Virus record (IMG/VR): IMGVR_UViG_3300021142_000065
Coordinates: 1-42,521 of that record
Source: a virus
Length of the DNA: 42,521 nucleotides
Strand: one strand, 5' to 3'
Shown: positions 35,009 to 40,212 of the stretch, piece by piece
Numbering within the stretch: position 1 is the first letter of the stretch
How the letters are laid out: every line of letters starts with the position of its first letter
Position numbers and translations under genes: made by a program
Notes under the pieces: generated by a model
Database searches by the model: none
What the model saw: only the letters and a program-made list of their open reading frames with translations
What the model was told of the DNA's origin: nothing

Positions 35009-35085
35009 GGTGCGTTCGGCTAGCGGTTAGGCCTCCTGATTTTCGCTCAGGTAAGAGGAGTTCGATTCTCCTGCCTCTCGCACCA
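35009..35085 (+). tRNA. tRNA-Glu-like (TTC) with abnormal 3' half
   Basis: The 5' half is a normal tRNA-Glu: GGTGCGT, D-arm GGCT/GGCC, anticodon stem CCTGA/TCAGG, loop TTTTCGC. The T-arm AGGAG/CTCCT is also good. The 3' acceptor strand CGCACC is separated from the T-stem by six bases (GCCTCT) where one is expected, so the acceptor and T-stem do not stack normally. Possibly a slippage-damaged pseudo-tRNA. Confidence 0.6.
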
Positions 35086-36584: not shown

Positions 36585-36659
36585 GAGGAAGTGTGCAGGA
36601 ACGGCTACTGCGGAGTTTTAAAATTTGAAATGTGGGTTCGAATCCCATCTTCCTCTCCA
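36585..36659 (+). tRNA. tRNA-like, unclear anticodon (TTA or TAA), weak anticodon stem
   Basis: Acceptor GAGGAAG/CTTCCTC with T73 and CCA, D-stem GCAG/CTGC and T-arm GTGGG/CCCAT are good. The anticodon arm GGAGTTTTAAAATTTG does not form a normal five-pair stem; the best fold gives loop TTTTAAA (anticodon TTA), a shifted one TTTAAAA (TAA). Possible pseudo-tRNA. Confidence 0.5.
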
Positions 36660-38466: not shown

Positions 38467-38474
38467 TATAAATA
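38467..38474 (+). promoter_or_regulatory. T4-type late promoter immediately before the CTA tRNA
   Basis: Exact TATAAATA ending eight bases before the first base of the tRNA at 38482, so the expected late start site falls at or within two bases of the tRNA 5' end. Confidence 0.6.
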
Positions 38475-38481
38475 CTATTAC

Positions 38482-38556
38482 GACCCTATGGCAGATTGGT
38501 TATGCAGGTGTCTCTAAAACGCTGTGAAGCAGGTTCAATTCCTGTTAGGGTCACCA
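38482..38556 (+). tRNA. Candidate amber-suppressor tRNA (CTA)
   Basis: Standard cloverleaf: acceptor GACCCTA/TAGGGTC, A73, CCA; D-stem GCA/TGC with GG in the loop; anticodon stem GGTGT/ACGCT (two G-U) with loop CTCTAAA, so anticodon CTA reads UAG; five-base variable region; T-stem GCAGG/CCTGT, T-loop TTCAATT. Shifting the loop to give TCT (Arg) breaks the stem and puts C at position 33. The charging amino acid cannot be told from sequence. Confidence 0.8.
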
Positions 38557-38575: not shown

Positions 38576-38875
38576 ATGAAAAATTGGTTAAAATATACCT
38601 GGAATACTTTTAAAGTATGGGCATTGTTTAAGTTATGGGCTATTATAGATAAAGATCTGATAAAGCAATATCAAGAACGCGAATGGCAAAAAAGAGCCAT
38701 GAAGTTGCGTGTTGATTATTTTACTCGGCAACAAGCGCATATCAATAAGCAAGATAATCCTGATAGATACTTTGATAAAGGTAGTTGGTTTGTTGGTGTA
38801 ATACCTGATAATTGGGTCGAGCTAATCGACGCTAAAATAGAAGAGCAAAACAAAAAGAAGGAAGACAAGCAATGA
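38576..38875 (+). CDS. Hypothetical protein
   Basis: 99 residues. Trp- and Lys-rich with an amphipathic N-terminus (NWLKYTWNTFKVWALFKLW) that may touch the membrane, then a charged helix and a segment DKGSWFVGVIPDNWVELI. No recognised domain. GAGAG ribosome site; ends in TGA. Confidence 0.6.
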   Translation: MKNWLKYTWNTFKVWALFKLWAIIDKDLIKQYQEREWQKRAMKLRVDYFTRQQAHINKQDNPDRYFDKGSWFVGVIPDNWVELIDAKIEEQNKKKEDKQ

Positions 38876-38919
38876 AGAACTTCATCGCCTAAACTTATAG
38901 ACCACCTTAAATTATTCTA

Positions 38920-38948
38920 TTGACTTTAATTGAATACTATAGTATATT
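38920..38948 (+). promoter_or_regulatory. Early-type promoter TTGACT-17-TATATT
   Basis: TTGACT (38920-38925), 17 bases, TATATT (38943-38948), followed by AAAGGAG and a short reading frame, and then tRNA-Gly. Confidence 0.55.
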
Positions 38949-38969
38949 AATAATTAAAGGAGTAATAAA

Positions 38970-39096
38970 ATGTCTGTACAATTAAAAATTAAATCAAAAA
39001 CTTACTGGTTCTACTAAATCAGTAGAACATAAAAAAAGAATTTCGGATGCTATTAAATTGAAATGGCAAAACAAGAAATGCGGTGTTGGTATATAG
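38970..39096 (+). pseudogene. Remnant of a homing endonuclease (NUMOD3 motif)
   Basis: A good ribosome site and ATG 38970 open a frame of only 15 codons. In the +1 frame a clear NUMOD3-like segment follows (TGSTKSVEHKKRISDAIKLK, then WQNKK) and runs into tRNA-Gly, stopping at a TAG in its D-loop (39094-39096). A frameshift or deletion has removed the nuclease domain. Confidence 0.6.
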
Positions 39097-39155: not shown

Positions 39156-39308
39156 TATTCGATGGGCAGTGTAGACATCACGGTCAAGTAAGCTCTCCAC
39201 CCGATAGGTGTGTGGCTCTCTTGCTTGGCGTGGTCGGGGAGGTATAAGCCTCATAACCATGGGAACCCGTGCACTGAAAAGAGGATGCATACTCGTACCC
39301 ATCGAATA
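39156..39308 (+). ncRNA. Structured non-coding RNA F closed by 11-pair stem
   Basis: TATTCGATGGG (39156-39166) pairs perfectly with CCCATCGAATA (39298-39308), enclosing 131 bases. Inside: CAGTG/CACTG (39167-39171 with 39272-39276), a long arm CAAGTAAG/CTTGCTTG with symmetric CTCT internal loops and a CACC/GGTG tip, and hairpin GAGG/CCTC. No reading frame is plausible. It starts three bases after tRNA-Gly. Family unknown. Confidence 0.55.
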
Positions 39309-40139: not shown

Positions 40140-40212
40140 TGCGGGGTAGTGGAAAAGTGCCACGGTTGGCTCATAACCAACAGAACTGGAGCGTTACCAG
40201 CGACCGCAACCA
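40140..40212 (+). tRNA. tRNA-like (CAT) lacking normal elbow bases
   Basis: Anticodon stem GTTGG/CCAAC with loop CTCATAA, D-stem GTGG/CCAC, ACCA end as in initiator tRNAs. The D-loop AAAAGTG has no GG pair and the T-loop AGCGTTA lacks TTC, so the usual D-loop/T-loop contact is missing. Acceptor pairs 6-67 and 7-66 are also poor. Confidence 0.6.

Follow-up and report, generated by a model that had tools for sequence, protein, structure and literature searches.

A phage amber-suppressor tRNA is linked to a UAG-containing leader that may act as a translational switch

Results

An amber-suppressor tRNA behind a late-promoter-like box

The window analysed here, an IMG/VR record of 42,521 bases, comes from a T4-type myovirus, of which it covers 42.5 kb; its terminase is 52-57% identical to the terminases of T4-type Sinorhizobium and Rhizobium phages. 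At least 17 tRNAs are clustered in it, among them an amber-suppressor tRNA (38482-38556, plus strand) with anticodon CUA in the loop CUCUAAA and an encoded CCA, identical in the related loci L009 and L110. ARAGORN called a tRNA with anticodon CTA at this position and the stretch scored 52.9 bits against the Rfam tRNA model (cut-off 29), in agreement with the earlier note, which had read a tRNA at 38482 whose loop CTCTAAA presents an anticodon CTA that reads UAG. Inspection by eye showed a canonical tRNA: all pairs of the acceptor stem form (7/7), the anticodon stem and the T stem have 5 bp each, the loop is CTCTAAA and ACCA is encoded. ARAGORN labels the tRNA 'Pyl' because the anticodon alone decides the label. 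We rejected an identification as tRNA-Pyl, which is marked by a 6-bp anticodon stem, a 3-nt variable loop and one base between the acceptor and D stems, whereas the tRNA at 38482 has a 5-bp anticodon stem, a 5-nt variable loop and two bases between these stems. The 49 distinct CTA tRNAs of the linked loci described below have the anticodon loops CTCTAAA (41), TTCTAAA (6) and TTCTAAC (2), and the discriminator base is A in 37 of the 47 that were scored. When we searched the window for a possible ancestor of the suppressor, the best match was a tRNA-Lys, and this match was weak.

ARAGORN reported a second suppressor-like tRNA, missed by the earlier note, at 36585-36659; its anticodon UUA would read UAA, although the call is doubtful, as the anticodon stem is weak and the tRNA is absent from the Rfam list, and it is possibly degenerate. 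A Glu(UUC)-like tRNA at 35009-35083 was detected by Rfam (32.4 bits) without an ARAGORN call, and a Met-like tRNA sequence at about 40142-40212 was called by neither program. Between tRNAs of the window (39158-39306) and of L009 (2138-2286, minus strand) we also noted a GC-rich spacer element of about 149 nt that folds well (z -2.4 and -2.2, respectively) and whose outer stem has changed in a compensatory way from one phage to the other (UUCGAUGGG/CCCAUCGAA versus UUCAACAGG/CCUGUUGAU). This element has no match in Rfam, and other tRNA spacers of similar composition folded no better than chance.

Directly upstream of the suppressor tRNA lies TATAAATA, a box resembling T4-type late promoters (38467-38474, plus strand), separated from the tRNA start at 38482 by seven bases. 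Given T4-like spacing, transcription would begin about 2 nt 5' of the tRNA. Because the window is AT-rich, the box by itself is weak evidence: we counted 12 occurrences where 6.7 were expected, a number reached by 2 of 100 shuffles, and several of these boxes lie 16-43 nt ahead of gene starts on the same strand, a placement like that of late promoters. The box recurs in relatives, starting 11-15 nt before the tRNA in L110, L113, L114, L154, L162, L177 and L185. At positions -20 to -8, TATAAATA was found at 7 of 49 distinct suppressor tRNAs, a count that includes two near relatives, and at 7 of 526 tRNAs of other kinds (Fisher p = 5e-5). Four of the seven boxes start 11 nt from the tRNA, where T4 spacing would put the transcription start inside the tRNA, so the spacing may differ. 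The earlier note's placement of a late-promoter box directly above the suppressor tRNA has thus gained support, since the box recurs at the suppressor tRNAs of relatives.

Relatives reveal a module that is decayed in the window

An IMG/VR scan with the tRNA identified L009, in which the tRNA and the TATAAATA spacer are identical (116 of 122 bases identical) and the tRNA cluster is otherwise rearranged. In L009 and in two further relatives, L094 and L095, a mini-ORF interrupted by an in-frame UAG comes after the tRNA, and behind it lies a gene for a 154-156-aa protein, here termed gene X. The mini-ORF, or leader, reads MKNFIA-UAG-TYRPP-UAA in L009 and L094 and MKAFFL-UAG-VFRPP-UAA in L095.

In the window, a 99-aa ORF (38576-38875, plus strand) that is absent from L009 and has no Pfam or PHROG match is inserted ahead of the leader, its stop overlapping the leader start (ATGA). 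The leader itself (38872-38910, plus strand) reads MKNFIA-UAA-TYRPP-UAA. Here a UAA (38890-38892, plus strand), which lies beyond the reach of a CUA anticodon, occupies the position at which L009, L094 and all other distinct leader-bearing relatives carry UAG. Folding and comparison with relatives place a hairpin immediately downstream, with a 5' arm at 38911-38923 that is weakened by one mismatch relative to L110 and a 3' arm at 38954-38966 that holds the gene X Shine-Dalgarno sequence (SD) GGAG (38959-38962; all plus strand). Of gene X, tblastn and translation recovered only the first 10 codons, MSVQLKIKSK (38970-38999, plus strand), in a reading frame that ends at 39017. We looked elsewhere in the window for another gene X or another leader and found neither. 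The module of the window is decayed, its UAG changed to UAA and its gene X cut to 10 codons, so that in this phage the tRNA is probably a surviving part of the module, or else has its target in a copy beyond the contig. Following the gene X remnant, one frame of 39004-39093 (TGSTKSVEHKKRISDAIKLKWQNK) resembles the NUMOD3 tail of a homing endonuclease. Gene X may have been lost from this phage through a homing-endonuclease event.

Suppressor tRNA, leader and gene X occur together in many phages

A search with gene X recovered the isolates DSS3_MAL1, BUCT-ZZ01, DLP_5, DLP_3, Summit, OLIVR1 and NCTB together with 80 IMG/VR loci. Altogether, the combination of CUA tRNA and leader is present in about 80 phage loci with 53 distinct leaders, which form about 41 clusters at an 80% identity threshold. 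Most gene X loci have a CTA tRNA nearby, typically 105-200 nt upstream. Among the isolates it is linked to gene X in DSS3_MAL1, BUCT-ZZ01 and OLIVR1, the last having a variant with an 8-nt loop, and in DLP_5, DLP_3 and Summit, where it is located 3' of gene X. Consistent with a loss of both parts together, gene X stands without a UAG leader and without a CTA tRNA in phage NCTB, whose genome is complete, and in contig G028 (113 kb). In the leader-bearing records G027 (88.7 kb), G033 (236 kb; loop pattern only) and the fragments G034-G036, a CTA tRNA was not detected. In L109 (718-791), L140 and L188 the suppressor tRNA has an odd anticodon loop of 8 or 6 nt (given by ARAGORN as 'ccta' or 'ct'), with UAG still present in the leader. 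Among bacterial genomes, the module was found in one contig, belonging to a Robiginitomaculum MAG. Neither a UAG-PP leader nor gene X was found beside the suppressor tRNAs of phages XacN1 and GAP32, and the module therefore explains one class of phage suppressor tRNAs rather than all of them.

In module-bearing phages, UAG also serves as an ordinary stop. TAG ends 3 of 46 likely genes of the window, and 0 of 38 before 33.7 kb, which agrees with the earlier note that the structural genes are intact in the standard code; among ORFs of 100 aa or longer, its share of the stops is 6-20% in DSS3_MAL1, DLP5, OLIVR1, BUCT-ZZ01 and contig G017. Reading through the three TAG ends of the window would add 3-29 residues without evident meaning. 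We accordingly rejected a stop-reassigned (code 15) phage, since the genes of the window, a fragment of the genome, are intact and TAG is not avoided as a stop.

The leader carries an invariant UAG followed by a coding signature

The leader is unannotated and has the form SD-ATG-(0-9 codons)-UAG-(2-6 codons)-Pro-Pro-stop, located 67-114 nt upstream of gene X. When the stretch before gene X was read with any internal stop allowed, all 51 distinct leaders carried UAG, and L122 and L124 added two more UAG leaders to give 53. We also scanned IMG/VR independently of gene X for one leader form, SD-MK-4 codons-stop-[I/V]xxPP-UAA, which returned 22 matches with UAG and none with UGA or UAA. ARAGORN placed a CTA tRNA at 21 of these 22 and gene X was present at 20; the two without a visible gene X lie too near the locus end. 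Across 1.6 Mb searched on both strands, the UAG-PP pattern occurred once per module-bearing phage, with one additional chance match. In L126 the same ending is found on a longer upstream ORF (...RRAIQIFR-UAG-KVFKPP-UAA), and in L184 the UAG or the Pro-Pro end is likewise part of a longer upstream ORF instead of a mini-ORF.

Differences between close pairs of leaders, counted from the UAG to the Pro-Pro end, fall on codon positions 1, 2 and 3 with counts of 7/20/75, and at each of the two Pro codons all four third bases occur while CC-CC stays constant. This pattern suggests that the UAG is translated through in the leaders and that the triplets behind it act as codons. As in translational attenuators, the upstream ORF of the relatives has its own SD and, judged by the codon-position bias, is translated. 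A purine follows the UAG in 50 of the 53 leaders, and a purine 3' of UAG is a context that favours amber suppression.

The second stop comes directly after Pro-Pro in 42 of 51 leaders and in 38 of 51 Pro-Pro is preceded by K, R or H. Arrest has been proven for the motifs RAPP and RGPP, with RSPP and RDPP as permissive variants (PMC10951233, PMC12992588). An R-x-PP ending is found in 11 of 53 leaders, most leaders having (K/R/H)PP-stop. By analogy, the Pro-Pro end is a probable stall site, stalling at (K/R/H)PP-stop being less established than at RxPP.

A hairpin is predicted to hide the gene X Shine-Dalgarno sequence

In the 53 loci examined, the RNA directly 3' of the Pro-Pro codons pairs with the gene X SD. 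The arms differ greatly in sequence among clades, and owing to this divergence no consensus structure emerged when RNAalifold was applied to a MAFFT alignment; we therefore used an alignment-free test in which arms were swapped. Native arms paired with a mean of -13.2 kcal/mol compared to -7.1 for swapped arms, with a median native rank of 2%. In addition, one base pair has changed in a compensatory manner between the hairpins of L009 and L094 (CCATT/AATGG versus CCGTT/AACGG). On average the 5' arm starts 19 nt past the UAG and 6 nt past the first Pro codon. Assuming that the ribosome covers about 13 nt downstream of the first base of the A-site codon, the predicted probability that the SD is unpaired is 0.16 in free RNA, 0.15 with a ribosome at the UAG and 0.56 with a ribosome at Pro-Pro. 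The gain in SD opening exceeds 0.2 in 45 of 53 leaders. A control with shuffled spacers gave 0.40. By computation, then, the relatives have an SD-hiding hairpin that a suitably positioned ribosome would open.

Gene X encodes a small helical protein

The product of gene X is small, basic (pI about 9.8) and all-helical (AlphaFold pLDDT 91.6). Searches found no Pfam or PDB sequence family for it, Foldseek returned no match at E <= 0.001, no PDB match was worth naming, and one viral relative without a function was found, suggesting that gene X represents a novel protein family. We discarded a VIA-align 2 match (best Z 7.8), as this range is common for long helices.

In L288, L305, L306 and L310, a UAG-PP leader precedes small proteins with a RYRxxHIAYCLLRGRxxEQIE-like motif. 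A PTH2-like gene comes next, and the CUA tRNA is about 670 nt downstream (90 nt upstream in L306). The PTH2-like gene of such diverged loci resembles the peptidyl-tRNA hydrolase PTH2 at a Pfam E of 7.6e-4, which is below the cut-off, and a PHROG 'hydrolase' at E 2.4e-7. Homology of the diverged proteins (L288, L305, L310 and L296) to gene X was not supported (hhalign E 0.03, probability 1.6%). The PTH2-like neighbours hint at peptidyl-tRNA or ribosome metabolism.

Discussion

The earlier note left the target of the suppressor tRNA unclear, rightly so, but the relatives disclose a conserved one, a single UAG in a leader upstream of gene X. We propose, with a probability of about 0.75, that the module is a translational attenuator gated by UAG, to which the suppressor tRNA of the phage is the key. 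Sequence comparison establishes the linkage of tRNA and leader, the invariant UAG, the coding signature behind it and the covarying SD hairpin; from these we infer suppression in vivo, stalling, activation of gene X, its late timing and its role. The proposed switch would have four parts, namely a suppressor tRNA, in some phages placed directly behind a late-type promoter box, a leader of the form M(x)0-9-UAG-(x)2-6-Pro-Pro-stop with its own SD, a hairpin with its 5' arm right after the Pro-Pro codons and the gene X SD in its 3' arm, and gene X. Without the suppressor tRNA, release factor 1 would terminate translation at the UAG, the ribosome would stay short of the hairpin and gene X would be off. 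Once the phage has made, matured and charged the tRNA, the UAG would be read and the ribosome would reach (R/K/H)PP or RxPP before the second stop, where it would probably pause. The paused ribosome would melt the 5' arm and free the SD, allowing translation of gene X. As the host has no means of decoding it, the UAG would be a private codon, and the leader would therefore report specifically on phage tRNA production. Gene X would be strictly dependent on the phage tRNA, as in an AND gate or a coherent feed-forward loop. Counting against this model are the broken leader and gene X of the window, the leader-bearing records in which no CTA tRNA was detected, the small share of leaders with RxPP, the missing consensus structure of the aligned hairpins, and the suppressor tRNAs of XacN1 and GAP32, which have no such leader beside them.

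An alternative is that the leader mainly senses termination, through RF1 activity and the drop-off of peptidyl-tRNA from a minigene-like ORF, with the suppressor setting the balance and gene X serving in ribosome or tRNA rescue. Several leaders are indeed very short (ML-UAG, MK-UAG and MI-UAG), comparable to the lambda bar minigenes, and some diverged loci have a PTH2-like gene followed by a CTA tRNA. We consider this reading unlikely, given that the coding signature after the UAG and the position of Pro-Pro beside the hairpin require passage of the UAG, and that the PTH2 link is confined to diverged loci for whose proteins homology to gene X was not supported.

The suppressor might instead act on the host, by read-through of host UAG genes or as a counter-defence to nucleases that cleave tRNAs; the leader would then be a minor side target. 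The suppressor tRNAs of XacN1 and GAP32, which have no such leader, would fit this idea, but it does not predict so tight and specific a link with a single UAG leader and appears improbable. It is very improbable that the hairpin works as in T4, which employs such SD-silencing structures: here it would silence gene X on long transcripts while an internal promoter in the spacer yields translatable mRNA, the leader being incidental. A TTGACT-17-TATATT-like sequence is present in the spacer of the window and L009, but the promoter-like score over the 53 spacers (8.08) is barely above that of shuffles (7.77), and the invariant UAG, the Pro-Pro codons and the linked CTA tRNA would be left unexplained. 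Late-infection recoding of the kind seen in code-15 crAss-like phages, with in-frame TAG of several late genes decoded by the suppressor, an analogy raised by the earlier note and suggested by the CUA tRNA with its late-type box, is barely credible given intact structural genes, the ordinary use of TAG as a stop in the window and in module-bearing phages, and the extensions without evident meaning described above.

The UAG-gated attenuator that we favour resembles ermC, SecM, CutF-CutO and ApdA/ApdP, in which the position of a ribosome on an upstream ORF opens an SD hairpin (PMC9973294, PMC10951233), and shares with these arrest-peptide attenuators a Pro-rich, stall-like end. It differs from them in its leader of only about 4-18 codons and in its input, which would be a phage suppressor tRNA at an internal UAG rather than a drug, secretion or a metal. 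A synthetic leak dampener (PMC7969014) likewise ties expression to a co-produced suppressor tRNA through UAG in a coherent feed-forward design; that system is engineered with the UAG inside the gene, whereas the UAG of the module is natural and would act in an SD-hairpin leader. For AMD1 (PMC13025110), regulation by read-through and a pause at a second in-frame stop is described, as proposed here, but in a eukaryote, with a long extension and no dedicated suppressor tRNA. No precedent for the module itself was found in open-access text.

Among phages, a CUA tRNA also reads UAG in the code-15 group (crAss-like phages, phAss-1 and Lak), where UAG is reassigned in many genes, in contrast to the module-bearing phages, in which it is an ordinary stop. 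XacN1 and GAP32 have a CUA tRNA within large tRNA clusters, yet neither has an adjoining UAG-PP leader or gene X, and the authors of the XacN1 study found no target for its two CUA tRNAs despite a search (PMC5852040). An opal (UCA) suppressor tRNA has been reported for Agrobacterium phage Atu_ph07 (PMC6102473); the IMG/VR scan for one leader form gave no UGA match that would point to a UGA-gated counterpart of the module.

Taken together, we think it fairly probable that UAG serves phages of several unrelated families as a private codon for regulation, the suppressor tRNA acting not in protein recoding but as an intracellular signal of phage tRNA production that turns on a dedicated gene by way of an arrest-peptide hairpin gated by UAG, which would make this the first natural gene switch controlled by a suppressor tRNA. 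The suppressor tRNAs of non-recoding phages previously had no known target, and many now receive a conserved one that annotation had overlooked. Gene X represents a new family of small proteins worth assaying. If true, the module is a natural AND gate for synthetic biology, a switch locked by a stop codon and opened by a phage tRNA, and it suggests self-monitoring of the tRNA supply by phages.
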